NCBI RefSeq assembly: GCF_014803405.1
Contig: NZ_JACYFG010000040.1
Coordinates: 1 to 64,000, forward strand
DNA: 64,000 nt
Direction of reading: 5' to 3'
Source: Pelagicoccus enzymogenes
GTDB lineage: Bacteria; Verrucomicrobiota; Verrucomicrobiia; Opitutales; Opitutaceae
A program made the position numbers and the translations under genes. Positions 6,499-35,986 of the stretch are shown one piece after another. How positions within the stretch are numbered: position 1 is the stretch's first letter; every line of letters begins with the position of its first letter. Under the pieces are notes generated by a model, which was not told the origin of the DNA, did no database searches, and worked only from the letters and a program-made list of their open reading frames with translations.

Positions 6499-6943
6499 GA
6501 TTGAAGATCGTAGATTCTAAATTTAAGATTGATGGCAGCTTACCAATTCTTCGAAGAACTCCCTATTTGGCAGGAAGCAAGAGAACTTGTCCGCCTTATT
6601 TACAAACTCACCAAGCAAGAAGAATTTTCGAAAGACTTCGGCCTAAAAGACCAGATCCAGCGTGCTGGAGTGTCTATTATGACAAACATAGCCGAAGGGT
6701 TTGAGAGACGTACCACAAAAGAATTCCAGCAGTTCCTCAACTACTCGAAAGCAAGTTCAGGCGAGGTACGCTCACTATCGTACGTTTCGTTGGATCAAGC
6801 GTATGTAACCGAGGAGCAATTCAATTCTATTCGCGAATTCACCTTGCAACTATCTAGGTCCATCACCGGATTCGACCGCTACCTCGGCCAGTCGAACCAC
6901 TGATCAGAACCAATTTTCAATCCTCAATTTTAAATCTTCAATC
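6499..6943. repeat. Inverted-repeat-bounded cassette carrying a four-helix-bundle gene
   Basis: The ends read GATTGAAGAT at 6499-6508 and its complement ATCTTCAATC at 6934-6943. Imperfect AT-rich similarity continues inward about 30 bases on both sides (GATTGAAAATTG-like units). The unit fills almost the whole gap between the wza-like stop (6484) and the wzz-like start (6947). This suggests that the small gene and its flanks moved in as one piece; the mechanism is unknown. Confidence 0.5.
6532..6903 (+). CDS. Four-helix bundle protein (23S rRNA intervening-sequence protein family)
   Basis: This 123-residue protein belongs to the S23/IVP-like four-helix bundle family (TIGR02436-type). The diagnostic phrases are FEELPIWQEARELVRLIY, FGLKDQIQRAGVSIMTNIAEGFER and FQQFLNYSKASSGEVRS. 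Members are found in 23S rRNA insertions, next to diversity-generating retroelements, and scattered singly in genomes; their biochemical role is not settled. The ATG at 6532 fits the family start; a TTG three bases upstream is less likely. No reverse transcriptase is nearby, so a retroelement accessory role is not supported here. Confidence 0.88.
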   Translation: MAAYQFFEELPIWQEARELVRLIYKLTKQEEFSKDFGLKDQIQRAGVSIMTNIAEGFERRTTKEFQQFLNYSKASSGEVRSLSYVSLDQAYVTEEQFNSIREFTLQLSRSITGFDRYLGQSNH

Positions 6944-6946
6944 GCA

Positions 6947-7885
6947 ATGAACGAAGTGAATCCACCAACTCCTCCACCGTATCCACAATACCCTTACCCG
7001 CCAGAAGAAGACGAGCTCTCCTTGATCGACCTCTGGAATATCGTCTGGAAGCGAAAATGGCCTTGGCTGACCTTTGGTCCCCTCTTCGCAGTGCTCGGTA
7101 TTTTCTACGCCCTAAAGCAGCCAGAAATTTATCGCGGCGAAGCCACCCTGGTACCCAACTCCGAAGAACAAGGCGGCGGTGGACTGGCCGCCCTCGCCGG
7201 ACAATTCGGAGGCCTGGCGTCCATGGCAGGCATCAATATCGGCGGAGGCGGATCCACAGAGACTGCGATCGCCACTTTAAGATCACGCCATTTCCTCATG
7301 CCCTTCATCGAAAGCGAAGCAGCGCAAAAAGCGATATTTGCCGACGAATGGGACGAGGAATCGAAGTCATGGACCGTATCCAAAGAGCGGAGACAGGAAG
7401 ACAATCGGCCTACGAAGCTCGAAACCTACGAGCGATTCACCAAGGAGTGCCTCAACGTCTCGGAAGACAAAAAGACTGGCATCGTAACCCTTGCCGTAGA
7501 ACTGCAAGATCCGGAGCTGGCAGCCGCATGGACTAACCAACTGGCGGACCACCTCAACGCTCACCTGCGCGAGCAGGCCAAACTCGAAGCAGAAAAGAAC
7601 CTCGAGTATCTAAACAAACAGATCACTGAAACCCGCGTACTGGAAATTAAGGAGTCGCTCTACGGCCTGATCGAAAGCCAAACCAAAAACGCCATGCTGG
7701 CCAACGCGAAGGAGGACTACGCCTTCAAGGTCATCGACCCTGCGGTCACCCCAGAAGAACGGGTACGTCCCAAGCGGGCCCTCATCGTCGTCGCCTCTGG
7801 AATGCTAGGTGGATTTTTCGGCCTCTTCCTCTGCTTCGTACTGCATTTTGTACAAACGGCTAAGCGGCAGGAATCCAAAGCCTGA
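6947..7885 (+). CDS. Wzz/GumC-like chain-length determinant, no kinase domain
   Basis: The 312-residue protein has a proline-rich cytoplasmic start (PPTPPPYPQYPYPP), a Wzz domain with the first membrane helix near residues 36-56, a glycine-rich stretch (about 77-102), a helical periplasmic region, and a second membrane helix near 275-298 preceded by the conserved proline/arginine stretch PEERVRPKRALIVV. Wzz proteins set polymer length together with Wza and the polymerase. The tail ends soon after the second helix without a Walker-type tyrosine-kinase domain, so any BY-kinase would have to be encoded elsewhere. It starts 3 bases after the inverted-repeat cassette. Confidence 0.88.
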   Translation: MNEVNPPTPPPYPQYPYPPEEDELSLIDLWNIVWKRKWPWLTFGPLFAVLGIFYALKQPEIYRGEATLVPNSEEQGGGGLAALAGQFGGLASMAGINIGGGGSTETAIATLRSRHFLMPFIESEAAQKAIFADEWDEESKSWTVSKERRQEDNRPTKLETYERFTKECLNVSEDKKTGIVTLAVELQDPELAAAWTNQLADHLNAHLREQAKLEAEKNLEYLNKQITETRVLEIKESLYGLIESQTKNAMLANAKEDYAFKVIDPAVTPEERVRPKRALIVVASGMLGGFFGLFLCFVLHFVQTAKRQESKA

Positions 7886-7906
7886 GAGGTCAAGTTTATA
7901 GCCAAT

Positions 7907-8063
7907 AGTGGCGGGAGCATCTTGCTCCCGAATTAACCAACTTCATACGCGACCTAGAAGGTCCCGCCACTCTGCCTATGGTGGCGGGAGCATCCTGCTC
8001 CCGATTCAACCGAATGCATTCGCACATTCAGCAATAAGGCTCGCTCGGAGATCGAGCCCTACC
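7907..8063. repeat. REP-like palindromes (GGGAGCA/TGCTCCC pair and GGCTCG hairpin)
   Basis: Two direct copies of a 23-base unit (7908-7930 and 7981-8003) each fold into a GGGAGCA-TGCTCCC hairpin; a third partial, inverted unit lies at 7960-7970. A separate hairpin with GGCTCG/CGAGCC arms spans about 8037-8058. The stretch separates two convergent genes and contains no ORF. Confidence 0.65.
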
Positions 8064-8089
8064 TTGCAACCACCAGAGCAAAGGTTCCT

Positions 8090-9385
8090 TTACTTATTTC
8101 GCCTACGGTGCACGAGCAGCCTCAGCTGCTCTCGACCCCAGAAAACAGGCCCAATAACTAAATAGAGAAAACTCAGAGATCGCGGCAACTTGACCTTCTC
8201 GTAGGCGGGCGGCCAAACGAGCAAGGTTGAAATATGCCGCAGCTTTTCTCCAAATCCTCCATGCAGCGTCAACAACACCCAGGAGCGGCGCACCATGTTG
8301 GAAAACGTTCCTGAATACTCATCTTCAGCCAATAGCTGCTGCAGACATAAAGAGCTGGCTAAGAAAGGTGATTTTTCAGCACGGCTGGCCTTCCGATCTG
8401 ATCCACCCCTCGTGGTGCCTAAGCTCCACTCTAGCGACTTCAACAAGGATCGAACGAGCTCCACCACACGCGAAGGCGGTCTACGATCTTCGCTTCTTAA
8501 TTCCGGTGGCCGCAATGAAGTGACACTCGCACGAGATTGTAATTCAGCCCCCCGCCCTACAGCGCAAAAAGAGGAAGAGGCAGCATGAGCTACGGACCTG
8601 CCAGATCCCGCTTCCCTGATGAGTTTCACATCTAGAAGCCATTTCAATCGGTTCCAGCAATGGGAAGCCCCATGCATTGCTAGATAACCAATCAGGTGCC
8701 CCTCACCCAGCGTACTTACCTCCTCGCCCGAAACAGCAACTCTTTGCTTCGAAGCAAAGAGTTGCTCGATCGGAGTATTGATTAAGACATCATTTCTCGA
8801 AAGCCGCCAGTGAAGCTCCACCCCCATTCCATCCTTAGTGAGGTGAACATGATACAATCGCGTCCAAATGGGATCTTTGAGAGGTTGGGATGCTATTCCG
8901 AGGAGGTCCTGCTGCTTGAAGCCTATACTCGAAAGAACCCGAATCGCATCAGGAATGTCGCTCGACCGCACCAGCATATCCAAATCGTTACAATGCCGCT
9001 GTGTAGGGTCTCCGTACAGCAATTGGCTCAGCACCGGGCCTTTGAGAGCGATAAAATCGACTTCCTCTTGTCGCAAGGCTTTGCTGATCCTCAGAAACTC
9101 AGCCAGCAACGCAAGCTGGCGGAGCTGCAGTCGCCGCGCTGTTGTATCCAACTCGACTCGCAACTTTGGGGAAAGGCGTTCCCACAGCCCCATTCGCTTG
9201 AGCGCCGCGCAAAATACTACATGCACGCGGTGCCGAGCCAGTAGCCCCTTTAGCTTCGCCTCGTCGATACCTCCAAAATCGAAATCCCCCGGTCCACCGT
9301 GGCCATGTCGTGTCCCCGCACCAAATCCGAGCGTTAGCGCGATAAATCGAAACTCCGCAGGCAGCTCGCTTCGATCGACTCCCAC
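8090..9385 (-). CDS. Nucleotidyltransferase-family protein (PF14907-like)
   Basis: The 431-residue protein has the fold signature FIALKGPVLSQLLYGDPTQR followed by the metal-binding NDLDMLV motif, then VELHWRL, typical of the Nucleotidyltransf_5-like family. Members occur in exopolysaccharide loci and also in lasso-peptide clusters next to HPr-like kinases, where one has been linked to tailoring of a phosphorylated peptide (family knowledge). Here it lies 15 bases downstream of the sugar-nucleotide dehydratase gene on the same strand, so the two are probably co-transcribed, and it is 2.5 kb from the lasso genes. Which pathway it serves is open. The C-terminal half is poorly conserved by eye. 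Confidence 0.78.
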   Translation of the reverse strand: MGVDRSELPAEFRFIALTLGFGAGTRHGHGGPGDFDFGGIDEAKLKGLLARHRVHVVFCAALKRMGLWERLSPKLRVELDTTARRLQLRQLALLAEFLRISKALRQEEVDFIALKGPVLSQLLYGDPTQRHCNDLDMLVRSSDIPDAIRVLSSIGFKQQDLLGIASQPLKDPIWTRLYHVHLTKDGMGVELHWRLSRNDVLINTPIEQLFASKQRVAVSGEEVSTLGEGHLIGYLAMHGASHCWNRLKWLLDVKLIREAGSGRSVAHAASSSFCAVGRGAELQSRASVTSLRPPELRSEDRRPPSRVVELVRSLLKSLEWSLGTTRGGSDRKASRAEKSPFLASSLCLQQLLAEDEYSGTFSNMVRRSWVLLTLHGGFGEKLRHISTLLVWPPAYEKVKLPRSLSFLYLVIGPVFWGREQLRLLVHRRRNK

Positions 9386-9400
9386 TACTTAACAGTCGAC

Positions 9401-11383
9401 CTATGCCGAATTCCCCTTGAAGGAAACCAGCTTGTCGCCGTTCAAGCTGGCCCCATCCTTTCGATACGCCGAACCTACTTCCGCATGCGAGGGAGCCCAA
9501 GTCGGGGCGGAGTAATCAGGCACATACTCAGGAACAAAACTGTGCAGCTTGCGCTTCAGGGCATTGTAGTCAGAGGAGCGGAGCAATGGAGAGAGTTCCT
9601 TGAGGAATTTTCGGACCTCTGCCTCGTTGGACTTACGCCCCGTAAAGCGGAACACCTTCTTGTTTTCCGTTAGCTCCAAGGTTTCCTGGCCATGCTGCAG
9701 CTCCTCGTAGAGCTTTTCGCCAGGGCGCAGGCCCGAGAAAACGATGTCGATGTCCTCTCCTTCGCGCAAGCCGCTCAACTTGATCATCTGCTTGGCGAGA
9801 TCGTAAATCTTCATGGGCTCGCCCATATCCAACACAAAAATCTCTCCCCCCTCCGCGTCGACCGAGCACTCGAGCACCAAGCCAACAGCTTCCGGAACCG
9901 TCATGAAATAACGAGTGATCTCAGGATGCGTTACGGTAATCGGACCGCCTTCTTCGATTTGACGCTTGAAAGTCGGAATCACGCTGCCTGAAGAGCCTAA
10001 CACGTTTCCAAAACGCACCGCAACGAATTGCGGAATGCGAGTGGAATCTTGCAACGACTGCAGGAAGATCTCCGCCAATCGCTTGGAGACCCCCATCACG
10101 TTGGTCGGGTTGACCGCCTTGTCGGTGGAGATGAATACAAAACGCTCCACCTCGTACTTGATAGCCAGATCGGCGAGCAAGGCAGTACCCAAGGTATTGT
10201 TGCGAATCGCCTCACCCGGCTGGTGTTCCATCATGGGAACATGCTTGTGGGCAGCCGCATGGAAGATGACATCCGGCAGGAACCCACCCATCAAAAAGTC
10301 CATGCGAGCTTCGTCCGTGATATCACCAATGAAGGCGTGGGAGGCGACGTCGGGGAACTCAGACTTCAGCTTCTGTTCCGTCTGAAAGAGCAGGTATTCC
10401 GCACGCTCGACCATTAACACCATGCTGGGATTACACTGGGCTATCTGGCGACAGAGCTCGCCTCCGATGGTCCCGCCCGCTCCGGTGACCATAACCACCT
10501 TCCCAGACAACTCACCAATGACTTTCTTGGAGTGGAGTTTGATAGAACGGCGTCCGAGCAGGTCGTCTATTTTGACAGGGCGAAGCTTGTCCACTCGCTT
10601 GCGACCTGAAGCCAGGTCTTCCCAGGAGGGTACGATCTCCACCTTCATGGAAAGCTTGCTGGCCTCCTCAGTGATCTCCCGAATCTTGGAGGGGCTGGCA
10701 GCGGGCATGGCCACGATCAGCTTGGTCGCTCCACAGCCCATATTGGTATCGCAGGCCTTGGAAATCGAGCTGTAGACTTTGAGCCCGTGAACGTTCTTGT
10801 CCCACTTGAAAGGATCGTCGTCAATGAAGGCCACCGGCGTGAGGGGACGATGTCGCTTGCCCATCAGATCAGCTGCCAAGGCTGCGCCGGTGTGACCCGC
10901 TCCATAAATGACAACCCGATGCTGGTCGCTAGGATCGGACAACACCCGAACGCCTGTACGTTTTTCGCGATAAATACGGAGGGATGTGCGAAAAACGCAG
11001 AGGAGGCTTACCGAGATAAAATAGTCGAGGATGATAGCGGCCTTGGAATGAAGGATGCCGAATTGGGTGTAGAACGAAGCGATGAAAAATAATACGCTTG
11101 GGACACCGAAAGCAGCTCCCACCCGGTAAACGTCCGGCAAACGGAAAAAGGTCAGCAGACCACGATACTGACCAAAAAAGTAGAGGGAAACCAGCTTGAT
11201 GGGAATCAACCAAAAAACCGTGGCCCAAAGCATGCCTGCCGTTGCATCTGAGATCGTGAAGTCATCCCTGAACTCAAACGCGAGTGTGAGGCTCGCCACG
11301 CAGATGAGCGAATAAATCGCACTGAGCAGCGTTAGACGACTCAACTTATGGACCCGCATATTGAAATTGGTTTTCATCGGCAT
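9401..11383 (-). CDS. FlaA1/WbpM/CapD-type membrane-bound nucleoside-diphosphate-sugar dehydratase
   Basis: The 660-residue protein has four N-terminal membrane helices (to about residue 130), a first Rossmann segment (VVIYGAGHTGAAL, near 158), then a catalytic SDR domain beginning VMVTGAGGTIGGELCRQI near 297, with AAAHKHVPMME and FISTDKAVNPTNVMGVSKR. In this long WbpM class the usual tyrosine of YxxxK is replaced by methionine (VMGVSK here), and UDP-GlcNAc 4,6-dehydration is the normal reaction. It makes deoxy-amino-sugar precursors for surface polysaccharide. It is the first gene of a short minus-strand unit with the nucleotidyltransferase. Confidence 0.93.
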   Translation of the reverse strand: MPMKTNFNMRVHKLSRLTLLSAIYSLICVASLTLAFEFRDDFTISDATAGMLWATVFWLIPIKLVSLYFFGQYRGLLTFFRLPDVYRVGAAFGVPSVLFFIASFYTQFGILHSKAAIILDYFISVSLLCVFRTSLRIYREKRTGVRVLSDPSDQHRVVIYGAGHTGAALAADLMGKRHRPLTPVAFIDDDPFKWDKNVHGLKVYSSISKACDTNMGCGATKLIVAMPAASPSKIREITEEASKLSMKVEIVPSWEDLASGRKRVDKLRPVKIDDLLGRRSIKLHSKKVIGELSGKVVMVTGAGGTIGGELCRQIAQCNPSMVLMVERAEYLLFQTEQKLKSEFPDVASHAFIGDITDEARMDFLMGGFLPDVIFHAAAHKHVPMMEHQPGEAIRNNTLGTALLADLAIKYEVERFVFISTDKAVNPTNVMGVSKRLAEIFLQSLQDSTRIPQFVAVRFGNVLGSSGSVIPTFKRQIEEGGPITVTHPEITRYFMTVPEAVGLVLECSVDAEGGEIFVLDMGEPMKIYDLAKQMIKLSGLREGEDIDIVFSGLRPGEKLYEELQHGQETLELTENKKVFRFTGRKSNEAEVRKFLKELSPLLRSSDYNALKRKLHSFVPEYVPDYSAPTWAPSHAEVGSAYRKDGASLNGDKLVSFKGNSA

Positions 11384-11530: not shown

Positions 11531-11843
11531 CGTTTTGATTGCAGATGTAGGCCCAAAACAACACCCGTCGAAATCATCCCCATCCGAGTAGGATAAAGGC
11601 CTTTAGGGGGTCACACTTACCATGATTACTCCTCATCTCAGCCAATCCCAACCATGAGCGCGATCGCTGGTGGCACAGGAGCCGCACCGTAGCCGTTTCG
11701 CATCTAGACTTGGATCGAATAGCCCAGCCCCACGAACTGCATGGCCCGTTTTTGGAAAAAAAATGGCATGGCGATACGTAGCAGGCGAATCTGCCTCCAC
11801 CTCTGAATTGAACCTCTAAGACTTCCCCAAAGAGAGCTGAGGA

Positions 11844-12368
11844 CTACAGCAGCACAACTTCGATTCTCCGCTCAGCCCCATAAGGCTCGATCCGGATACA
11901 AGCAGAACCAAAGGTCGCAAGCTCCTTGAAACCAAGTTCAGAAGCCTTCCCTCCCGTGATAGGATTTCCCAGCGATGCGGTCCAAGCGTGCGCTCGCACC
12001 TTGCCGATTTCATCCTCTCTCACCCCTATGCCTACAAAAAGAGGCAGAGATCTCCTCCAAAACAGGAAACTGGCCGCCAAGGCTTGATGCAGGCAAAGAA
12101 ATCGACAAGGGAGCAACTCAGAAGCCTGGGCGATTCTTACGGCTATTCCACGCGTCAAGCGGGGGTCATAGAAACTGAGTCCGCACCGGCCCGTCCCAAG
12201 GGTTCGTAGGACGAAAAAAGGCAGTGAAACTGGCGAAAAACGAACAAGCAGCTTGGCCGCTAGTAGCGCTAAGCAAACCTCCATCCCCTCCAACGTTGTG
12301 TCGCTTCTCACGAACTTCCTCTTGCAAAGAAACCGAACCAGCCTTGAACAAATAACAGTCACTTTCAT
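11844..12368 (-). CDS. Lasso peptide leader peptidase B2 (transglutaminase-like cysteine protease)
   Basis: The 174-residue product matches the PF13471 transglutaminase-like family used as B2 proteins in lasso-peptide pathways. The helix-rich N-terminus leads to the catalytic block RFLCLHQALAASFLFWRRS with candidate nucleophile C92, then GIGVREDEIGKVRAHAW with candidate catalytic H127. The usual third acidic residue is not obvious after HAW (NPITGG follows). B2 proteins cut the leader off the precursor with help from B1. The gene is divergent from the kinase-sulfotransferase-B1-precursor operon, with a 135-base shared upstream region that should hold both promoters. The call depends on family pattern plus context. 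Confidence 0.85.
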   Translation of the reverse strand: MKVTVICSRLVRFLCKRKFVRSDTTLEGMEVCLALLAAKLLVRFSPVSLPFFVLRTLGTGRCGLSFYDPRLTRGIAVRIAQASELLPCRFLCLHQALAASFLFWRRSLPLFVGIGVREDEIGKVRAHAWTASLGNPITGGKASELGFKELATFGSACIRIEPYGAERRIEVVLL

Positions 12369-12503
12369 CCATACGACCTTGGCTCATCTACTCATGGGCA
12401 ATGCAACAGCCTCTTACCTACTAGTTCTATCTGCTCCAGCCAAGGGACTTATGCCTGCAGAGTTTTAAGGCCATCGGCAACAGATTTCGTGCTTCATTCC
12501 TCT

Positions 12504-13418
12504 ATGTCATTCGCCTACAGAGCGTTCGGACTCACCATCCAATCCGAGATCCAACTGCCTCTCCTCCAAAACGACAGCGACAGCCCGGACATCGAAATTC
12601 GTTACGGGAAGTGCCCTCAAAACCTTGGCAAGGCGACCAAACACGGTTTGAAATTCGAAGCGAACTCGGACGAATTCCTCCTGAAAGTCGATGGGTGCGC
12701 CGACTATTATGTGACGGAGGGAAAGAAGGTAACGATACAGCCAAGGGACAAGTCAGAGTCCGCCGAATCAATCGTTTCCCTTCAACTCCTCGGCCCCGTG
12801 ATCGCAGCGTTGCTGTTTCAGAGAGAAGAGTTGTTTTTGCTCCACGCAAGCGTGGTGGCACGGAACGACAAGGCATTTGCGATCGCCGGAAGATCGGGAT
12901 CCGGAAAATCCACCTTGGCCACCGCCTTGCTAGATCTAGGCTTCCAATCTCTGGGCGACGACGTTTGCGCCCTTTCGTTTGACGCTAACGCTCGCCCGTA
13001 CGCCCGCCCCTCCATCCCATCTGCGAAGCTGTGGAAAGATTCCATCGAACTCCTCGGCCTGGAGCCAGAGGGACTGAAACGGATCGCGCCAGCCATCGAA
13101 AAGCTCCACTTCCCCCTCTTCGATCGTTTTTCGCGGGTAGACACCCCTCTTGCTGGGATCTACCTGCTGACAGGAGAACACGGATTGGGTGACATCCTCA
13201 GTCCGCTCTCCGCCATCGAGGGCCTATCGGCGATAAAGGAGCACCAATTCCGTAAGATAATTGCCACGGGGGAATCGCAGCAACGGCATATCTTCAGCAG
13301 AAGCGTGATGCTTGCAAACGCTACGACCATCAAATCCACACACAGAGGCCCCAAAGGCACTACCCTAAAGGAACTCGCGACGCACATCCTGAATGACACC
13401 GAGCGATGGGAAAGATAA
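12504..13418 (+). CDS. HPr-kinase-like protein, probable lasso precursor kinase
   Basis: The 304-residue protein resembles the HprK C-terminal catalytic fold: H114 in LLHASVVA, a P-loop at 129-137 (GRSGSGKST) and the D152-D153 pair in SLGDDVCAL. The N-terminal phrase YRAFGLTIQSEIQLP is typical of the lasso-associated kinase group rather than true HPr kinases, which carry a different N-terminal domain. In the paeninodin pathway a homologous kinase phosphorylates the C-terminal serine of the precursor; the precursor here also ends in Ser. I prefer the ATG at 12504; a GTG at 12489 adds five residues. It overlaps the next gene by 13 bases. Confidence 0.85.
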   Translation: MSFAYRAFGLTIQSEIQLPLLQNDSDSPDIEIRYGKCPQNLGKATKHGLKFEANSDEFLLKVDGCADYYVTEGKKVTIQPRDKSESAESIVSLQLLGPVIAALLFQREELFLLHASVVARNDKAFAIAGRSGSGKSTLATALLDLGFQSLGDDVCALSFDANARPYARPSIPSAKLWKDSIELLGLEPEGLKRIAPAIEKLHFPLFDRFSRVDTPLAGIYLLTGEHGLGDILSPLSAIEGLSAIKEHQFRKIIATGESQQRHIFSRSVMLANATTIKSTHRGPKGTTLKELATHILNDTERWER

Positions 13419-14260
13419 CTTGGATCGCATCCTATCCGAAATCAGGGAATACTTGGTTACGCACGTTTCTAGCAACCCTTGGCACCTCCGGGAGCGACAC
13501 CAAATTTGACAGACTCCAGTCAATACCAAGCGCCACATCGAGAATGCGCCTCGAAAAAGTGATGGGATTGGACACAAGCTGGATGCGGCTGAATGAAACA
13601 GAGGCGATACTTCCCGACTTTTTCAATCACTTGGCGGCCAAAACCGAGGGAACTCTCTTTTTCAAAACGCATCACGCTTTCTTGACCAACCAGAGCGGAG
13701 ACTGGATCCTTCCACAGGAGGCGACACAAAAAGCGCTTTATCTGGTGCGAAACCCAATGGACGTCGCTGTTTCCTTCTCCTACCACAATGGGCACGAAGA
13801 CTTCGACAGAACTATCGATCTGCTAGCCGACCGCGACGCCACCCTAGCCCATCAAACCGACCGATTCACTCATCAGCTCCCGCATAGAATCAGCAGTTGG
13901 AGTAACCATGTTGCAACCTGGCGAAACTCACCGATAAGGCCCTTAATCGTCCGCTACGAAGACTTGCTGGCCGAACCTTTCAAGTGTTTCGCCAATATAA
14001 CAGAGTACCTCGAAATAAGCGCCACGACGACAACTCTCGCTAACGCGATTGAACGCTGTCGATTCGAGAAACTGAAACAGGTTGAAGAGGAGGTCGGATT
14101 CCACGAACGTCCCCCAAGCTCGAGAGCATTTTTCCGAAGTGGGAAATCTGGCGACTGGAGGAACCATCTATCCGCCAATCAAGTCAGCCGCATTGTAGAC
14201 GCGCACCATATCCAAATGCAAAAGCTCGGTTACCTTGACGCACTCGGGAACCCTCGATAA
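13406..14260 (+). CDS. PAPS-dependent sulfotransferase in the lasso operon
   Basis: The 284-residue protein has the complete sulfotransferase pattern: the 5'-phosphosulfate loop YPKSGNTWLR at residues 10-19, the KTHH segment at 87-90, the 3'-phosphate motif LVRNPMDVAVS (113-123), and the C-terminal FFRSGKSGDWRNHL loop that closes over PAPS. It would transfer sulfate from PAPS to a hydroxyl or amine. It overlaps the kinase gene and lies directly before the B1 gene, so it is very probably co-transcribed with the precursor. Sulfotransferases have been noticed near some lasso clusters, but the substrate here is unknown; the predicted core has no tyrosine. Confidence 0.9.
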   Translation: MGKITWIASYPKSGNTWLRTFLATLGTSGSDTKFDRLQSIPSATSRMRLEKVMGLDTSWMRLNETEAILPDFFNHLAAKTEGTLFFKTHHAFLTNQSGDWILPQEATQKALYLVRNPMDVAVSFSYHNGHEDFDRTIDLLADRDATLAHQTDRFTHQLPHRISSWSNHVATWRNSPIRPLIVRYEDLLAEPFKCFANITEYLEISATTTTLANAIERCRFEKLKQVEEEVGFHERPPSSRAFFRSGKSGDWRNHLSANQVSRIVDAHHIQMQKLGYLDALGNPR

Positions 14261-14283
14261 GCACAGGGTCAACAAAATAGCAG

Positions 14284-14568
14284 ATGCCGCTCCCCATGCA
14301 CTTTCAAAGATCGAAGGAAAACGTTTCATGCAAACTCGAAGACGACACCGTCGTTCTCGACCCCAAAACCGGAGCCTACTTCAGATTAAACTCCGTAGGT
14401 GCCCGCATCTGGACCCTTATCGATCAACCTGCGGATCTCTCAACCATAGTCGAGACCCTCCAAGGCGAGTACGAAATCACGCGAGACAGATGCGAGCATG
14501 AATCCCTCGCATTCCTAGAAATGCTAAAAGAAAAAGGGCTGCTTGCATCCGATGCGTCATCAACTTAA
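14284..14568 (+). CDS. PqqD-like lasso B1 / RiPP recognition element protein
   Basis: The 94-residue protein is a stand-alone PqqD-family winged-helix domain. The core signature is LEDDTVVLDPKTGAYFRLNSVGARIWTLID, followed by helices ending LEMLKEKGLL. B1 proteins bind the leader peptide through a beta-strand groove and present it to B2 and C. The gene starts 23 bases after the sulfotransferase stop and ends 11 bases before the precursor start, consistent with one transcript. Size and pattern agree with B1 proteins of split-B lasso systems. Confidence 0.88.
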   Translation: MPLPMHFQRSKENVSCKLEDDTVVLDPKTGAYFRLNSVGARIWTLIDQPADLSTIVETLQGEYEITRDRCEHESLAFLEMLKEKGLLASDASST

Positions 14569-14579
14569 AGAAGCTGACC

Positions 14580-14732
14580 ATGGCAAATTCCAACCACTCA
14601 GACCCAGTCGAAGAATCCACTGCTCCCTCGAAGAAAACTTGGACCAGTCCCGTCTGCGAGGATCTCGATGATATCAAGATCGAGGGCGGAGGCATCCCAG
14701 GCGGTCCTGAGGATACGACTTTTACGTCTTAA
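14580..14732 (+). CDS. Putative lasso peptide precursor (50 residues)
   Basis: This short gene follows the B1 gene by 11 bases. The leader carries KKTWTSP (residues 18-24) and then L29, a match to the aromatic-xxP...L pattern that B1 proteins recognise. The last 15 residues, GGGIPGGPEDTTFTS, are a plausible core: Gly36 could close a nine-member ring onto Glu44 (position 9), leaving DTTFTS as tail. A start at Gly37 or Gly38 would use E8/D9 or E7/D8 instead. The customary Thr at leader position -2 is Ile34 in the preferred register. The terminal Ser50 suits the neighbouring kinase. The stop lies 1 base from the convergent cyclase stop. Confidence 0.75.
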   Translation: MANSNHSDPVEESTAPSKKTWTSPVCEDLDDIKIEGGGIPGGPEDTTFTS

Positions 14733-14733
14733 T

Positions 14734-16611
14734 TCAGGCCCTAGCATACCTTCGAAGCATCACGCTTATACCGAGCGACTGCATAAAACGGTACCGTCCG
14801 ACAGGGTCCAAATCCTCTAGGCCCAGTGCCGCCTCACGAAATTCGGTCAGGTTTAACCAAGATAAATCGATCCCAGATTTCTCCAAGTCGCGCACGTAAT
14901 TGCGGACCTCTCGCCCAGAACTTCGAAAATAATCCGCGACCCAAGGAATAGCAGGAACTTGCTTCAACTCTCCCCAGCGGATGCGACTGGGAAGTTCAGG
15001 CATCGCTTTCCGCAGCGGATACCTGCCAAACCCATCCCTTCGCAGCAAGCGGAGGGGGAGTTTCATGCAGAATTCCATGAGAGTTCGGTCCAACATCGGA
15101 TAGCGAACCTCGATTCCAAATCGAGACGCAACCTCGCAACTTCCAGGCAGTCGACCACTCGCAAGAAAACCTTCGCTCACGCCGAAGATCCGCTTGCCAC
15201 TGAAGTCGAGAGAGGCGTAGTAGCTTGAAGACTCCTCCAGCAGCTCGGTCACGATGTCTTTGGACAGGATAGAATCCGACAAGAATTGATTCCCTCCAAG
15301 TAAATAATTGGATCTCGACCGTCGCTTGAAAGAGGACAAAGGCATCAGGGAGGAGGCCAGCCGTGCCAATCGTTGCCGTGTACTTGTCAAACGACTGTCG
15401 AGCATTAGCTCCCTCGCAAATCGGATCCAATCGCCGCTTCGGAACCAGTCTCGATAAATCAAGGCATTCGCGGTACTGACCAGGTCGTCGCCCCCGGCGC
15501 CCGAGAGCAGGCAATGAATGCCCGCCGCGCCTGCTTTTTCGTACAAGGCTCGAGAGTAGACGCCCCACTGGTTCCATAGACCACCGCCCATTCCACTACT
15601 GGAAGCAGAAAGGAAGTCGATAAAGCCGCCTCCGTCCTGATGAATTTGGCAGGGAGAGGGGATCCCAAAATGGCGAACGTTGGATTCGACTAGCTCGAAT
15701 TCCCGACCGTAATCGCCCGCTCTCTCAGAGCTCCTTTCTGACAACACATGAGAGTAAGAATGGACCTGTTTCGGAGAAAATCCACAGGCGATCGCAGCGG
15801 CGACAATTGATGAACTATCCAAACCTGCGCTCAACTCAAAGCCAGTCCGATCCGCTCTCCCCAGCCTCAGTTTGACCGAGCTAAGAAAACGCTCCCGGAA
15901 CCCTTCTAGGCAGTCAGAATCAGAGAGCGATGAGTCTTCCCCCGGCTCGAGCTGCCAATAGCGGCTCTTGTGAACGCGACCATCCGAAAAACGGACGATC
16001 GAGGCAGGGGGGACCTGGGCCACACCCACGCAGGCTGTCAGCTCCAAGCTTTTCGGCCCGTAACAGCGCGTGGAGCTGGCGGCCAACCACCTCGGATCCA
16101 GCTCGAAAGTGCCGCGCCTTTGACCGACGAGCTCTTCAAAGCTGCTCCCAAACAACAGCGTCTCCCCATCGATCGAGTAAAATAAGCTCTTGGCACCCAC
16201 CACATCCCGCACCAGCAAAACCTGGTTCTCGAGATGATCGACAATGCAAAACGCGAAATCCCCCAAAATCCGGTGGGCAAACAGGTCCCCCCACTTCCGA
16301 TAGGCCATCCAGACGAGTTCACAATCCTCGACTGGTTTCTCTCTCTTCGAGCAAACCAGCAGCTCTTCCAGTTCCCTTCGATTATCGATTCTGCCCCCCC
16401 CTACGACGATCCAATCGACATCAAAAGTTGAACGCTCACGCCCAAAGGCGAGTCCAGTCGAGGTTCCTGAAAAACGGCAGCTCACACCTTCGCTTCGAAA
16501 CCAAGAACGCCCCACATCAAACTCGATTTCGGGCGCGGGTTCCATGTGCTTCCGCAATAGCCCGAGCTGAACGCTTCCCCCAAAGCCTATCATCACGGGT
16601 GAGCAAGCCAT
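14734..16611 (-). CDS. Lasso peptide cyclase C (asparagine-synthetase-like)
   Basis: The 625-residue protein has an N-terminal glutaminase-like domain with RDVVGAKSLFYSIDG and a C-terminal asparagine-synthetase ATP-pyrophosphatase domain whose PP-loop reads ELSAGLDSSSIVAAA (about residues 258-272). Later blocks include LLSGAGGDDL and EVRYPMLDRTLMEFC. In lasso pathways this enzyme adenylates an Asp/Glu side chain and joins it to the freed N-terminus. It is convergent with the precursor gene and has its own upstream region. An ordinary asparagine synthetase is possible from sequence alone, but the neighbours make a RiPP cyclase much more likely. Confidence 0.87.
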   Translation of the reverse strand: MACSPVMIGFGGSVQLGLLRKHMEPAPEIEFDVGRSWFRSEGVSCRFSGTSTGLAFGRERSTFDVDWIVVGGGRIDNRRELEELLVCSKREKPVEDCELVWMAYRKWGDLFAHRILGDFAFCIVDHLENQVLLVRDVVGAKSLFYSIDGETLLFGSSFEELVGQRRGTFELDPRWLAASSTRCYGPKSLELTACVGVAQVPPASIVRFSDGRVHKSRYWQLEPGEDSSLSDSDCLEGFRERFLSSVKLRLGRADRTGFELSAGLDSSSIVAAAIACGFSPKQVHSYSHVLSERSSERAGDYGREFELVESNVRHFGIPSPCQIHQDGGGFIDFLSASSSGMGGGLWNQWGVYSRALYEKAGAAGIHCLLSGAGGDDLVSTANALIYRDWFRSGDWIRFARELMLDSRLTSTRQRLARLASSLMPLSSFKRRSRSNYLLGGNQFLSDSILSKDIVTELLEESSSYYASLDFSGKRIFGVSEGFLASGRLPGSCEVASRFGIEVRYPMLDRTLMEFCMKLPLRLLRRDGFGRYPLRKAMPELPSRIRWGELKQVPAIPWVADYFRSSGREVRNYVRDLEKSGIDLSWLNLTEFREAALGLEDLDPVGRYRFMQSLGISVMLRRYARA

Positions 16612-16642
16612 GAATAACCCCGCAACTGAGCCAAGCTGAGCG

Positions 16643-16679
16643 ACAAAAAAAGCATGCCTTCAAAGGCATGCTTTTTTGT
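16643..16679. terminator. Bidirectional intrinsic terminator
   Basis: A nearly perfect inverted repeat has AGCATGCCTT and AAGGCATGCT arms around a two-base loop, with A-tracts on the left and T-tracts on the right, so it can act on either strand. It ends the CTERM-protein gene (stop at 16699, minus strand) and insulates it from the cyclase gene start at 16611. Confidence 0.85.
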
Positions 16680-16698
16680 TTGAAAGTAAAGAGGCGAG

Positions 16699-17355
16699 TT
16701 AACGCAAACGGGAACGGCGAGCAAACACGAGAAGGCCTGCGATAGAAAGACCCAGCATGCCAGCGGTCGCGCCAGCATCTGGAACAACGTTCGCTCCGAG
16801 GTAGGCAGTCGCAAGTTTCACCGAAGTGTTTTGATCCAAGTAGGTCTCGTCCAGTCGGACTACCCAGCTTACCATTCCGTCCGTTTCGATATCGACCTCA
16901 AGCTGAGCTTTGAGAGTCGCAAAGTCAGAAGTCTGGAAGGATATCTCGAACAAGCCTAGATCCGGCTCGACTGCGTCACCAGTTGTGGAGAACACCGGAC
17001 CGCCAACAACGAGGTTGTTGAGGTAAGACCCAATGTTGAATTCAGCTCTGTTCACCGCCACTTGGGCATCTCCCACGAAATCGCGGAAGATAAAGCCAAC
17101 AATAGCTTCAGAAACATCCGTGCCCACGTTGTAACCGTCTCTGTTGTAGGCGTCATTGTCGCCCTTGATGCCATTGCCGCCGGTGACGAGATTGAAGACG
17201 CCTCGGGCTTCCAGATCATTGAGACTCAGCGTCTCGTTTTGAAAAATGATGTGACGGTACTGCGCTTCCTTTAAGGTGATTGCGGATGCACTACCCGCGA
17301 AGGACGAAAGCGAGGCCGCGACCGCAAATAGCGAGATGAATAGTTTAGATTTCAT
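16699..17355 (-). CDS. VPDSG/PEP-CTERM-type sorted exported protein
   Basis: The 218-residue protein has a signal peptide (MKSKLFISLFAVAASLSSFAG...SASA, about 1-25) and a C-terminal sorting signal: VPDAG, a hydrophobic helix (TAGMLGLSIAGLLVFA), then RRSRLR. This tripartite tail is the PEP-CTERM layout in its verrucomicrobial VPDSG variant, processed by an exosortase and often linked to exopolysaccharide. No exosortase gene is in the window. The middle region has no domain I recognise. I chose the ATG at 17355 because it directly precedes the signal peptide; the in-frame extension upstream has no export signal. Confidence 0.8.
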   Translation of the reverse strand: MKSKLFISLFAVAASLSSFAGSASAITLKEAQYRHIIFQNETLSLNDLEARGVFNLVTGGNGIKGDNDAYNRDGYNVGTDVSEAIVGFIFRDFVGDAQVAVNRAEFNIGSYLNNLVVGGPVFSTTGDAVEPDLGLFEISFQTSDFATLKAQLEVDIETDGMVSWVVRLDETYLDQNTSVKLATAYLGANVVPDAGATAGMLGLSIAGLLVFARRSRLR

Positions 17356-31619: not shown

Positions 31620-31669
31620 TGAATGAACGTTCATTTTTGGTTGACTAGAGAAAAATGAATGACCATTCA
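31620..31669 (+). promoter_or_regulatory. Tandem TetR-type operators of the efflux operon
   Basis: AATGAACGTTCATT (31622-31635) is a perfect 14-base palindrome. TGAATGACCATTCA (31656-31669) is a second, related site 34 bases further on. A TTGACT hexamer (31641-31646) sits between them, so repressor binding would block a promoter. The natural candidate repressor is the TetR protein encoded at the end of this operon. Confidence 0.65.
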
Positions 31670-31690
31670 CTCACAAAAAAAAACGAAGCC

Positions 31691-32824
31691 ATGAAACCTC
31701 TATTCCAGCGAAGCGCTCCCATCCTTCTAATTTCCGCAATCCTCGTAGGCTGCAGCCAAGAGCAGGCAGCGCCCCAGGCCGGTCCGGCTCCCACCGTCAC
31801 GGTGGCCGCCATCCAGACTGAGCCGGTTACCCTTCAGCGGGAGCTTCCGGGACGAGCGGTCCCCTACCTCGTGGCCGAAGTACGGCCTCAGGTGAACGGC
31901 ATCGTAGCGGAGCGCCTCTTCCAGGAGGGCGGAACCGTGGAGGCGGGCCAAGCGCTCTACCAGCTGGACGACGCCATGTACCGGGCCAATACCAACATCG
32001 CCGAGGCCACCCTGCAAAACGCCCAGGCCGCCCTCGCCCTGGCCCGCACCGAAGCCAAGCGCAGCTCCGAACTGTTCGCCGCCAAAGCCATCAGCGCCCA
32101 AGAGTACGACAATTCTCAATCCAAGCTGCAACAGGCCGAAGCCCAAGCCAAGCTTGCCGCCGCCAGCTTGGAAAGCTCTCGAATCACTCTCGCCTACAGC
32201 CGCATCACCTCTCCGATCAGCGGCCAAATCGGACGTTCCGCCGTCACCAAGGGCGCCCTCGTCACCGCTAACCAGAGCGCCGCCCTCGCCACCGTCCAGC
32301 AACTCGACCCCGTCTACGTCGACTTCACCCAGTCCAGCAACGAGCTGATCCAGCTCCGCCGGGCCCTCTCCAGCGGCGACTTGCAAGCCGTCGACCTGCC
32401 CGTGCAAATCCTGCTCGAAAACGGAACTCCCTACGAGCATCCGGGAAAAATCGCCTTCTCCGAAACCACCGTGGACCCGAGCACCGGCAGCTTCACCTTG
32501 CGGGTGGAGGTTCCCAATCCCGACCACCTCATCCTCCCGGGCATGTACCTGCGAGGACGGGTAGGCGAGGGCCTGCGCCAGAACGGTATCCTCGTGCCGC
32601 AAAAGGCGGTCGCCCGTACCTTCGACGGCAGCACTTCCGTAAAAGTCGTGGCTCAGGACGGCACCGTGGAAACGCGCAAGGTCACGCTCGGCCAAGCCGT
32701 CGGCAACCGCTGGGTGGTGGAGAGCGGACTCTCTGCGGGCGACCGTGTAGTGACCGTTGGACTACAAAAGGCCATCCCCGGATCCAAGGTCCAAATCAGC
32801 GCCACAGAAAACGCCCAGCCCTAA
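31691..32824 (+). CDS. RND efflux periplasmic adaptor lipoprotein (MexA/AcrA-like)
   Basis: The 377-residue membrane-fusion protein has a lipoprotein signal (ISAILVGC with the lipidated Cys), a biotinyl-lipoyl-like region (VRPQVNGIVAERLFQEGGTVEAGQALYQLDDAMY), an alpha-hairpin (about residues 90-150), then ITSPISGQIGRSAVTKGALV and a beta-barrel. It bridges the inner-membrane pump and the outer-membrane channel. I chose the ATG at 31691 because the upstream ATG at 31655 lies in the operator. First gene of a four-gene operon with pump, channel and repressor. Confidence 0.93.
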   Translation: MKPLFQRSAPILLISAILVGCSQEQAAPQAGPAPTVTVAAIQTEPVTLQRELPGRAVPYLVAEVRPQVNGIVAERLFQEGGTVEAGQALYQLDDAMYRANTNIAEATLQNAQAALALARTEAKRSSELFAAKAISAQEYDNSQSKLQQAEAQAKLAAASLESSRITLAYSRITSPISGQIGRSAVTKGALVTANQSAALATVQQLDPVYVDFTQSSNELIQLRRALSSGDLQAVDLPVQILLENGTPYEHPGKIAFSETTVDPSTGSFTLRVEVPNPDHLILPGMYLRGRVGEGLRQNGILVPQKAVARTFDGSTSVKVVAQDGTVETRKVTLGQAVGNRWVVESGLSAGDRVVTVGLQKAIPGSKVQISATENAQP

Positions 32825-32863
32825 GCAAGGCCTCGCCAAATCATCTTTTAACGCACCATAGCC

Positions 32864-35800
32864 ATGGCACGATTCTTCATAGACCGACCCATCTTCTCAT
32901 GGGTGATCGCCCTTTCCATCATGATCGCGGGAGCTCTCAGCATGACGCAGCTGCCCATCTCCCGCTATCCGACCGTGGCCCCGCCATCGGTCGCCATCAC
33001 TGCCGTCTACCCGGGAGCCTCCGCTCAGGTCGTGGAAAATTCCGTGACCCAGATCATCGAGCAAAGCCTCACCGGCCTCGACGGACTCATCTACCTCTCC
33101 GCCACTTCCGACTCCTCGGGCGCCTCGCAAATCACTGCCACCTTCGCCACCGGTACGGATCCTGACCTCGCTCAAGTCCAGGTGCAGAACAAGATCCAGT
33201 CGGCCACCGCCCTGCTGCCCAGTCAAGTGCAGCAGCAAGGCGTCACCGTATCCAAATCGGGCGAAGGCTTCCTCATGGTCATCGGTTTCGTATCGGAGGA
33301 CGGCAGCATGGGCCGCGTCGATATCGCCGACTACCTGGTAGCCAACGTGGCTGACCAAATCGCTCGCGTGGACGGAGTCGGCGGCACGCGTGTATTCGGA
33401 GGACAATACGCCATGCGCATCTGGCTCGATCCCAATACGCTGCACTCCTACCAGCTCTCCGTCTCCGACATCACATCCGCCGTTCAAGGCCAAAACCAGC
33501 AAGTATCCATCGGGCAAGTCGGTGGGGCTCCCGCAGAAGAAGGCCAGCAAATCAACTTCACCATCAACACGCGAGGCCGCCTGCAAACCGCCGAGGAATT
33601 TTCCGATATCGTGATTCGCAGCAACCCGGACGGCTCGCTGCTCCGACTCGGAGAAGTCGCCCGCGTCGAGCTGGGCTCAGAGCAATACGGATTGGAAACG
33701 CACTACAACGGGCAAATGGCGGGCGGCATGGCCGTCACCCTCGCCTCCGGAGCCAACGCCCTCGAAACCGCAGCAGCGGTCAAGGAGCTGCTCGACGAGA
33801 TCGCCCCCTTCCTGCCCGAAGGACTGAAAGCGGAAATCCCCTTCGACAATACGCCCTTCGTGGAAGTGGCCATCCAAGGCGTGGTAACTACCTTGCTGGA
33901 GGCCGTAGTGCTGGTCTTCATCGTCATGTTCCTCTTCCTGCAAAACTGGCGAGCGACCCTCATTCCCACCATCGCCATTCCCGTCGTATTGCTGGGAACC
34001 TTCGGCGTATTGGCTGTATTCGGATTTTCGATAAACATGCTTACTATGTTCGCCATGGTCCTCGCCATCGGCCTCCTCGTGGACGACGCCATCGTGGTCG
34101 TGGAAAACGTGGAACGCCTCATGAGCGAGGAAGGGCTCAGCCCCAAGGAAGCCGCTCGCAAGTCGATGGACCAGATCACCGGAGCCCTCGTAGGCATCGG
34201 TGTCGTGCTCTCCGCCGTCTTCGTGCCAATGGCCTTCCTCGGCGGCGCCACCGGAGTGATCTACCAGCAGTTCTCCATCACCATCGTATCGGCGATGACC
34301 CTTTCCGTGATCGTCGCCATCGTCTTCACGCCCGCCCTCTGCGCCACCATGCTGAAGCCGATCCAAAAAGGTCACCACATTAAGGATACAGGATTCTTCG
34401 GCTGGTTCAACCGTACCTTCGACCGCGCCAACGACCGCTACCAAAGCGTCGTCAAAGGCATCATCGGATTTCGCAAGAGCTTCTTCGCCGCCTTCCTCGT
34501 CATCGTCGGCCTCATGGTCTTGCTCTTCCTGAAGCTCCCGACCGGCTTCCTTCCGAACGAGGACCAAGGCTCCATCTACGCCCAAATCATCGGCCCAGTA
34601 GGCGCGACCAAAGAACACACCATGGAGGTCATCGAACAGGTCGAAGACTACTTGCTCAACGAAGAAGCAGGAGTCATCTCCGACGCCTTTACGGTGCAAG
34701 GCTTCAGCTTCGCCGGCTCTGGCCAAGCAAACGGCATGGCCTTCATCAGCATGACCGACTGGAGCGAACGGCCAAATCCAGAGCAAAGCGCCCAAGCCTT
34801 GGCCAACCGAGCTAACGCCGCTTTCAGCAAGATCGAAGGCGCCACCATCTTTGCCTTTGCTCCGCCGCCGATCACGGAGCTCGGCAACTCCGCTGGCTTC
34901 ACCTTCTACCTGAAGGACAACGGCAGCCAAGGGCACGAAGCCCTTATCGCCGCTCGCAACCAACTACTCGGCCTCGCCGCCCAAAACCCGAAGCTTACCC
35001 GCGTACGTCCCAACGGACTGGAAGACGCCCCCCAGTTGAAGGTGCTTATCGACAACGCCAAGGCTGCCGCCCACGGCCTCTCCATACGAGACATCAATAC
35101 CACCTTGGGCGTGGCCTGGGGTGGACTCTATATCGACGACTTCATCGACCGCGGCCGCGTCAAGCGCGTCTATCTTCAGTCGGAAGCGGAATACCGGATG
35201 CAACCAGAGGACTTCGAAAAGTGGTCCGTGCCCAACAACCAAGGCGAGATGGTTCCTTTCTCCGCTTTCGGTACCACCGAGTGGGACTACGGTTCGCCAC
35301 GGTTGGAACGCTACAACGGCGTATCTGCCGTTCAAATACAAGGCGAAGGAGCCAGCGGCACTAGCTCCGGCGACGCCATGCTGGAAATTGAGAAGCTGGT
35401 CGAGCAGTTGCCCGACGGTTTCGGCATCGAGTGGACCGCTTCCTCCTATCAAGAACGCCAAGCAGGCAATCAGACCACCCTATTGTACGCGCTCTCGCTG
35501 CTCATGGTATTTCTCGCCCTCGCCGCCCTCTATGAGAGCTGGTCCATTCCGACCGCCGTGCTGCTCGCCGCACCGCTGGGCATCGTGGGAGCCGTATTGG
35601 CAAATATGTTACGCGGCTTCGAGCGCGACGTCTATTTCCAGGTCGCCATGCTCACCACCGTCGGTCTGACCAGCAAGAACGCCATCCTTATCGTCGAGTT
35701 CGCCAAGATCAACTTGGAGAACGGGATGAAGCTTATGGAAGCGACCTTGCACGCAGTTAAGGACCGTCTGCGCCCGATTCTCATGACCTCTCTCGCCTTC

Positions 35801-35986
35801 GGCCTCGGCGTCGTTCCGCTCGCCATTGCTAGCGGCGCCGGGTCCGGGGCCCAGCAAGCCATCGGCACCGGCGTACTCGGCGGCATGCTGGTCGGCACCT
35901 TCCTGGGAATCTTCTTCGTCCCCCTCTTCTTTTTCCTGATCGAACGCCTCTTCATCCGCAAGAAAGGACACCAGAGCCATGCGTAA
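32864..35986 (+). CDS. RND multidrug efflux pump subunit (HAE1, AcrB/MexB-like)
   Basis: The 1040-residue inner-membrane transporter has the full RND architecture: MARFFIDRPIFSWVIALSI at the start, the proton-relay aspartate pair near 407-408 in LLVDDAIVVVENVER, and the repeat halves around residues 330-500 and 860-1030. Length and start match the hydrophobe/amphiphile efflux-1 family. It exports drugs, detergents or metabolites using the proton gradient. Its end overlaps the next gene by 8 bases. Confidence 0.95.
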   Translation: MARFFIDRPIFSWVIALSIMIAGALSMTQLPISRYPTVAPPSVAITAVYPGASAQVVENSVTQIIEQSLTGLDGLIYLSATSDSSGASQITATFATGTDPDLAQVQVQNKIQSATALLPSQVQQQGVTVSKSGEGFLMVIGFVSEDGSMGRVDIADYLVANVADQIARVDGVGGTRVFGGQYAMRIWLDPNTLHSYQLSVSDITSAVQGQNQQVSIGQVGGAPAEEGQQINFTINTRGRLQTAEEFSDIVIRSNPDGSLLRLGEVARVELGSEQYGLETHYNGQMAGGMAVTLASGANALETAAAVKELLDEIAPFLPEGLKAEIPFDNTPFVEVAIQGVVTTLLEAVVLVFIVMFLFLQNWRATLIPTIAIPVVLLGTFGVLAVFGFSINMLTMFAMVLAIGLLVDDAIVVVENVERLMSEEGLSPKEAARKSMDQITGALVGIGVVLSAVFVPMAFLGGATGVIYQQFSITIVSAMTLSVIVAIVFTPALCATMLKPIQKGHHIKDTGFFGWFNRTFDRANDRYQSVVKGIIGFRKSFFAAFLVIVGLMVLLFLKLPTGFLPNEDQGSIYAQIIGPVGATKEHTMEVIEQVEDYLLNEEAGVISDAFTVQGFSFAGSGQANGMAFISMTDWSERPNPEQSAQALANRANAAFSKIEGATIFAFAPPPITELGNSAGFTFYLKDNGSQGHEALIAARNQLLGLAAQNPKLTRVRPNGLEDAPQLKVLIDNAKAAAHGLSIRDINTTLGVAWGGLYIDDFIDRGRVKRVYLQSEAEYRMQPEDFEKWSVPNNQGEMVPFSAFGTTEWDYGSPRLERYNGVSAVQIQGEGASGTSSGDAMLEIEKLVEQLPDGFGIEWTASSYQERQAGNQTTLLYALSLLMVFLALAALYESWSIPTAVLLAAPLGIVGAVLANMLRGFERDVYFQVAMLTTVGLTSKNAILIVEFAKINLENGMKLMEATLHAVKDRLRPILMTSLAFGLGVVPLAIASGAGSGAQQAIGTGVLGGMLVGTFLGIFFVPLFFFLIERLFIRKKGHQSHA

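Follow-up and report, generated by a model that had tools for sequence, protein, structure and literature searches.

A stretch of 64,000 nucleotides from Pelagicoccus enzymogenes (contig NZ_JACYFG010000040.1, positions 1 to 64,000; hereafter the window) contains six contiguous open reading frames (ORFs) at 11844-16611, which encode a B2 leader peptidase, an HPr-kinase-like kinase, a sulfotransferase, a PqqD-like B1 protein, a precursor of 50 amino acids and a cyclase. Judged from its sequence, this set is probably a paeninodin-like lasso peptide cluster, which would form an exchangeable cassette in the capsule locus of an Opitutaceae-like verrucomicrobium. The assignment to the lasso type is based on family models, the spacing of the kinase motif, a congener precursor with a conserved leader, and synteny. 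An earlier note on this DNA had read the genes as a lasso-type cluster that carries a kinase and a sulfotransferase and belongs to a verrucomicrobial host; the same evidence, including the precursor of the congener G546, bears this out, and the six genes it named are all present, with ORFs at the expected place and Pfam matches for B2, the sulfotransferase, B1 and the cyclase. The extent of six genes was drawn too narrowly, since a probable seventh gene coding for a nucleotidyltransferase (8090-9385) was missed. The product had further been described as doubly tailored; genes for a putative kinase and a sulfotransferase are indeed present, but this description is perhaps incomplete, because the nucleotidyltransferase co-occurs with the lasso genes and up to three tailoring steps are therefore predicted.

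The B2 protein matches the Pfam family Transglut_core3 (50 bits, cut-off 26) and passes the NCBIfam model lasso_biosyn_B2 (NF033537). Its Cys and His are kept in the alignment, and the Asp position is unconserved in relatives too. B2 and B1 are the only Transglut_core3 and PqqD matches, respectively, in the 6.2-Mb genome. The nearest solved relatives of B1 are TbiB1, the lasso PqqD chaperone 9x90 and TfuB1. The cyclase has no Cys at position 2 and retains the SxGxDS and GGD motifs.

The precursor has no Pfam match. It consists of the leader MANSNHSDPVEESTAPSKKTWTSPVCEDLDDIKIE and the predicted core GGGIPGGPEDTTFTS (GGGIPGGPE-DTTFTS). In G546, the precursor found at the same place ends with KKAWETPTCSDIDDLKIE-GGPAVFITESPTAHVS; its leader is alike and its core different, and G1, E9 and the terminal Ser are common to both cores. 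This combination of a similar leader, a variable core and conserved G1, E9 and Ser suggests that the leader is cut after KIE and that a nine-residue ring is formed between G1 and E9; a ring of eight residues starting at G2 would be a possible alternative. Features expected of a lasso precursor are found, namely a binding motif for the RiPP (ribosomally synthesized and post-translationally modified peptide) recognition element (RRE; WTSP), Gly1 and an Asp or Glu within positions 7-9 (E9). The Thr usually expected at position -2 is replaced by Ile in both the window and G546. A phosphorylated lasso precursor with Ile(-2) has been validated (PMC10368454; this and the other papers cited below are drawn on in passages), so that Thr(-2) is not strictly defining. 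Tandem precursor candidates within one cluster were seen in other lasso loci (L061, 10102-10735; L294, 3144-4552; L071, 12647-13925).

The kinase reaches the cut-off of no Pfam family (Hpr_kinase_C, 14.7 vs 33.3), and no lasso-kinase model was found in the profile libraries; the best NCBIfam match is HprK_rel_A. The residues H119, G134, G137, G139, K140, S141, D157 and D158 have the same spacing as the eight motif residues named for BsfK (H148 to D187; PMC10368454), and a profile of eight kinases ranks HPr kinase structures first. Lasso loci with two adjacent kinase genes, one of them beside a sulfotransferase gene, were also observed (L293, L294, L295, L068 and L124).

The ORFs of the kinase and the sulfotransferase overlap by 13 nucleotides (nt). 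Among 30 aligned related enzymes, the loop YPKSGNTW for 3'-phosphoadenosine 5'-phosphosulfate (PAPS) and the residues K87, H89, R115 and S123 are invariant; we take these to be the PAPS loop, the catalytic His and the Arg and Ser contacting the 3'-phosphate. An AlphaFold2 model (predicted local distance difference test 92) matches the fold of cytosolic sulfotransferases and of Teg12. The nearest solved sequences are Teg14 and Teg12, with StaL further down. Teg14 and StaL act on glycopeptide aglycones, and Teg12 acts on the teicoplanin aglycone according to the title of its structure; these substrates are not RiPPs, unlike the one predicted for the window enzyme. A gene for adenosine 5'-phosphosulfate kinase (202.8 bits), which could supply PAPS, is present in the genome, as are two further Sulfotransfer_1 genes.

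Which residue is sulfated was approached by comparing precursors, with up to three candidates counted per locus; no precursor scored above the limit in 41/107 kinase loci with a sulfotransferase and in 19/27 without one. WxxP ORFs with a C-terminal Ser served to train the leader score, which leaves the last residue itself out. The 66 sulfotransferase-positive loci gave 81 precursors, and 72 of these have a terminal Ser, compared with 9% Ser at the nine preceding positions. Since all eight precursors from loci without a sulfotransferase have it as well, the terminal Ser tracks the kinase. Tyr was considered as the sulfated residue and is not claimed. It occurs within the last eight residues of 41/81 sulfotransferase-positive precursors (34/66 loci) and 1/11 negative ones (Fisher p=0.010, which ignores relatedness; three of the 11 were added by hand from a search requiring a terminal Ser), but the association is lost after correction for relatedness (independent pairs on the kinase tree: 4 supported, median p=1). 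Since the window core lacks Tyr, the acceptor would be one of T11, T12, T14 and S15 or the phosphate, most likely a Thr or Ser of the tail.

The nucleotidyltransferase (PF14907) probably belongs to the lasso set; the evidence is suggestive and the numbers are small. Eight genomes of the genus were compared, six of which have a close orthologue of the sugar dehydratase WbpM (70-100% identity). In the window genome (G000), G549, G546 and G548, the nucleotidyltransferase and the lasso genes flank WbpM on opposite sides; the nucleotidyltransferase is thus found in 4/4 lasso-bearing genomes with a WbpM locus, the window included, and in 0/2 lasso-less ones. The latter are G550 (WbpM 94% identical) and G547 (70%), which have neither lasso genes nor the nucleotidyltransferase at this locus. 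The window nucleotidyltransferase contains an extra in-frame stretch of about 40-50 residues (about 8400-8600, minus strand), which is absent from three congeners and could be an inserted repeat.

The surrounding capsule locus has a conserved backbone, which within the fetched stretches reads Wzi, SLBB, Wzz, WbpM, threonine dehydratase, S4, RodA and Rng (Wzi, Wzz and threonine dehydratase named from domains; S4, RodA, Rng and the HHE protein mentioned below assigned by eye). WbpM is kept at 70-94% identity in five congeners, with or without lasso genes. A DNA comparison with G550 reveals two separate gaps at 7876-9401 and 11670-17337 (window coordinates), and the second region contains a VPDSG-CTERM-like gene in both genomes, with products 33% alike. 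Backbone proteins of the window share 68-84% identity with those of G546, but the VPDSG-CTERM proteins 33%, and the kinase, sulfotransferase, B1, cyclase and nucleotidyltransferase just 28-39%. In a tree of 45 kinases, the four same-slot kinases (window, G546, G548 and G549) are scattered: that of G548 pairs with G495 from another genus (Shimodaira-Hasegawa-like approximate likelihood ratio test 100) and that of G549 with G545 (92), while the position of the window kinase is not resolved. Monophyly of the four is rejected by the approximately unbiased (AU) test (p=2.3e-8; the group was defined by synteny, though a quick tree preceded the test, and branches are long). Because cassette genes are far less conserved than the backbone and same-slot kinases are scattered, with AU rejection, we read this as apparent exchange of cassettes at a single site and not as divergence of resident genes. 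The slot contains no lasso cassette in two congeners (G550 and G547) and apparently unrelated cassettes in four genomes. The only B2 match in G546 lies about 99 kb from the kinase, and the lone lasso B2 genes of G546 (L044) and G548 (L037) lie at a large distance from the kinase, B1 and cyclase genes of the same genome or on a different contig; for this reason, B2 may act in trans in these two genomes. A general tie of such clusters to capsule loci was considered as well and is not shown outside the genus: ORFs resembling WbpM, SLBB or Wzz were found in the fetched stretches of just 8/134 kinase loci, the window included, in a search that did not cover glycosyltransferases.

A scan of a genome collection with the sulfotransferase alignment as bait gave 561 relatives, the best 80 of which were analyzed; through the choice of bait, these 80 loci are biased towards sulfotransferase carriers. 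The kinase gene lies beside the sulfotransferase gene in 74 of these best 80 loci. In two of the other six, the genes lie within 900 bp of a contig end (L099 and L134); L132 has a weaker kinase match about 2.9 kb off, and L112, L121 and L137 have none. A cyclase or B2 gene is present in the fetched flank of 65 of the best 80 loci, which come from eight phyla (Pseudomonadota 27, Bacteroidota 20, Chloroflexota 6, Thermodesulfobacteriota 5, Verrucomicrobiota 3, Acidobacteriota 2, Cyanobacteriota 1 and Actinomycetota 1). In samples not chosen by sulfotransferase, the gene is next to the kinase gene in 12/24 non-redundant verrucomicrobial kinase loci (window included), in 15/29 loci fetched for the order that includes Sphingorhabdus soli (mostly the best of at least 84 matches) and in 10/11 loci from the order of Mucilaginibacter rivuli. 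After removal of seven duplicates, 134 non-redundant kinase loci remained; the kinase gene is followed by the sulfotransferase gene in 105, and 97 of these 105 pairs overlap or are at most 10 nt apart, although overlap is overstated by the use of longest ORFs. The rarity of the combination that had been implied is not supported, given the 74 loci and precedents in print. Lasso B2 itself is uncommon in the phylum (15/387 genomes) and the family (14/252).

Such precedents come from several known systems. The paeninodin-like clusters (PadeK, ThcoK and SyanK, from Bacillota and Sphingobium) share with the window discrete B1 and B2 proteins, a cyclase, an HPr-like kinase, a WxxP leader and a terminal Ser, and the window kinase has the H/G/K/S/D/D motif of this group. 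They also share the capsule-locus setting, which was reported for Bacilli with a role described as unknown (PMC13381572). The window differs from them in Ile(-2) instead of Thr, the kinase-coupled sulfotransferase, the lack of a visible exporter gene and its verrucomicrobial host. Some Firmicute lasso clusters contain a putative sulfotransferase and a nucleotidyltransferase (Zhu 2016c via PMC8498205), and some clusters of anaerobes an HPr kinase and a sulfotransferase (PMC4289311); they thus share the added genes of the window, with the function of the sulfotransferase unknown there. In these printed clusters the sulfotransferase is reported to stand at the cluster start, whereas in the window it directly follows the kinase, in one row with B1 and the precursor, and unlike in the Firmicute clusters the nucleotidyltransferase lies beyond WbpM. 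The pseudomycoidin cluster shares a kinase (PsmK) and an annotated nucleotidyltransferase (PsmN), the latter being required for the attachment of a hexose to phospho-Ser (PMC8498205, PMC9266682); unlike for the window, no sulfotransferase is mentioned in the passages on pseudomycoidin, and no word starting with 'sulfo' or 'sulfat' occurs in the text of PMC9266682 drawn on. The bsf cluster of Bradymonas sediminis shares the phosphorylated Ile(-2) precursor and the kinase motif, but has a YxxP leader and a kinase acting on Ser3, and the word 'sulfotransferase' does not occur in the paper (PMC10368454). Lasso clusters with kinase and sulfotransferase genes, Ile(-2) and a position in a capsule locus have thus each been published; new here are a verrucomicrobial example, the close coupling of kinase and sulfotransferase, and a capsule-locus slot that is empty in two congeners and filled by apparently unrelated cassettes in four genomes. 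No sulfated or verrucomicrobial lasso peptide was reported in the open literature searched (titles, and for sulfate also passages).

In the predicted pathway, B1 would bind the WxxP leader and bring the precursor to the kinase, which would phosphorylate the C-terminal Ser15 of the linear peptide. The sulfotransferase, presumably co-produced with the kinase, would use PAPS to sulfate one of the hydroxyls in the tail (T11, T12, T14 or S15). B2 would then cut after KIE, the cyclase would join G1 to E9 around the tail, and the nucleotidyltransferase may glycosylate the phosphate.

Several observations weigh against this interpretation. The window B2 is divergent, with 40.4 bits for NF033537 compared with 81.8 and 82.3 in two congeners. 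Lasso profile models had been put forward in the earlier note as a check, which B2 passes (cut-off 33), whereas B1 (lasso chaperone, 67.6 bits, cut-off 80) and the cyclase (lasso cyclase NF033535, 187.5 bits, cut-off 525) have lasso models as best NCBIfam matches and stay below the cut-offs; that of NF033535 is also missed by the cyclases of two congeners (333.8 and 368.3). The cyclase loop reads SAGLDSS, whereas 12 of 13 other aligned cyclases have SGG or TGG. Neither an ABC exporter nor another dedicated exporter was found among 20 window ORFs scanned with Pfam, in agreement with the earlier statement that no dedicated ABC transporter is seen; an MFS protein (30193) and an RND pump (31655-35986) are encoded more than 13 kb from the cluster. 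The residue modified by BsfK is Ser3 (PMC10368454), and the choice of site can therefore differ among kinases. The window precursor and the tails of G546 and G545 lack Tyr. Finally, the linkage of the nucleotidyltransferase is based on six genomes, and the lasso set of G545, located between HHE and Rng orthologues, is not accompanied by this gene in the 19.9 kb fetched.

Some of these points would also fit a decaying cluster that makes no lasso peptide, namely the divergent B2, the SAGLDS loop, the missing exporter among the 20 ORFs and the extra nucleotidyltransferase stretch. All seven ORFs of the set, the nucleotidyltransferase counted, are open, the catalytic residues of the kinase and the sulfotransferase are intact and the cyclase keeps SxGxDS and GGD, which makes decay improbable. 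It is highly improbable that the genes produce another RiPP (LPP-type or HPr-rel-A system): lasso B2 and cyclase are present, the leader motif is WxxP and not YxxP, and HprK_rel_A (TIGR04352), although the best match of the kinase, reaches 40.8 bits with a cut-off of 200, as PqqD_rel_X (TIGR04353) reaches 25.3 with a cut-off of 35. Furthermore, B1 scores 41.5 bits with the lasso chaperone 9x90 and 28 bits with 9x8z. The latter is named only 'PqqD family protein', and that it is LppB is our guess. The LPP family has a SipW-like signal peptidase as its leader peptidase, in place of which the window encodes a lasso B2 and a cyclase. What LPP clusters do share with the window is a kinase, an RRE, a nucleotidyltransferase and the capsule-locus setting (PMC13381572).

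The sulfotransferase could alternatively act elsewhere than predicted. The locus encodes Wzi, an SLBB export protein, Wzz and WbpM, and bacterial sulfotransferases can act on sugars; the enzyme might thus modify a capsule sugar, its position between kinase and B1 being accidental. This is very unlikely, as the lasso-less G550 has the capsule backbone and no match to kinase, sulfotransferase, B1 or cyclase in its stretch, the couple with the kinase recurs in 74 of the best 80 loci with a capsule-type ORF in just 8/134 kinase loci, and the nearest solved sequences are glycopeptide sulfotransferases. It is rather unlikely that the enzyme acts on the site of the kinase, either by sulfating the terminal Ser ahead of phosphorylation or by modifying the phosphate. 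The close coupling of the two genes (97/105 pairs) would fit, and so would the terminal Ser as the sole near-invariant hydroxyl of sulfotransferase-positive precursors, 7/81 of which lack any further Ser, Thr or Tyr within their last eight residues. Another hydroxyl is available there in the remaining 74/81, however, the terminal Ser is equally fixed without a sulfotransferase (8/8) and we know of no precedent for a phosphate-sulfate anhydride in peptides. Coming back to the predicted lasso peptide, we consider it distinctly unlikely that the set is a serotype-like cassette whose phosphorylated, sulfated and glycosylated product leaves the cell together with the capsule, or is bound to it, via the resident Wzi, SLBB and Wzz proteins; this would account for the missing exporter, for the slot in the capsule locus and for the unrelated cassettes in sister species.

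Table 1. Features of the predicted lasso cassette and its surroundings in the window.
Feature	Position	Strand	Evidence or remark
Nucleotidyltransferase (PF14907, NTP_transf_5), probable lasso tailoring enzyme N	8090..9385	-	Pfam 152.8 bits, cut-off 31.2
WbpM-like sugar 4,6-dehydratase, capsule backbone, outside lasso set	9401..11383	-	Polysacc_synt_2 374.6 bits
B2 leader peptidase	11844..12368	-	NF033537 40.4 bits vs 33
Divergent intergenic region, B2/kinase	12369..12488	.	gene positions; promoters presumably inside
HPr-kinase-like putative lasso kinase	12489..13418	+	motif spacing; start GTG 12489 or ATG 12504
PAPS-type sulfotransferase	13406..14260	+	Sulfotransfer_1 102 bits (cut-off 22)
B1, RRE	14284..14568	+	PqqD 73.5 bits (cut-off 23.4)
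Precursor leader, 35 aa, WTSP motif, Ile at -2	14580..14684	+	translation
Predicted core GGGIPGGPEDTTFTS and stop; ring G1-E9, tail DTTFTS	14685..14732	+	boundary inferred
Predicted lasso cyclase C (asparagine-synthetase-like), convergent with precursor	14734..16611	-	Asn_synthase 92.2 bits (cut-off 21) and GATase_7

The strands of the lasso set are mixed (Table 1). A consensus scan gave no sigma-70-like site in the B2/kinase intergenic region, and promoter and terminator scans gave nothing above chance. The VPDSG-CTERM gene adjoins the cluster. The G+C content of the cassette genes (50-55%) is slightly below or within that of their neighbors (54-63%), and their third-position G+C is lower than in genes further out; both signals are weak and are not used as support. 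A 50-nt unit that resembles repetitive extragenic palindromic elements and contains the palindrome GGCGGGAGCATCYTGCTCCC occurs twice at 7901-8023, in the stretch separating Wzz from the nucleotidyltransferase; the two copies are 82% alike and are the only ones in the window at two or fewer mismatches. An IS110-family transposase gene (20-1240) lies next to the capsule locus, and a protein of the 23S-rRNA-intervening-sequence type (6529-6903, 115.4 bits), also present in G549 and G548, is encoded inside it. Neighboring ORFs at 50606-51856 and 52000-53274 have closely similar translations and are apparently a tandem duplication of what we take to be a glycoside hydrolase gene.

Taken together, clusters of this kind are widespread but little studied: lasso clusters with a kinase and a sulfotransferase recur in at least eight phyla, yet no lasso peptide with a demonstrated sulfate was found in the open literature searched. 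The most interesting part is the apparent cassette exchange at the capsule locus. The window and its congeners provide small, testable gene sets, and the cases with and without a cassette at one locus would make a role of lasso peptides at the capsule locus testable by deletion.

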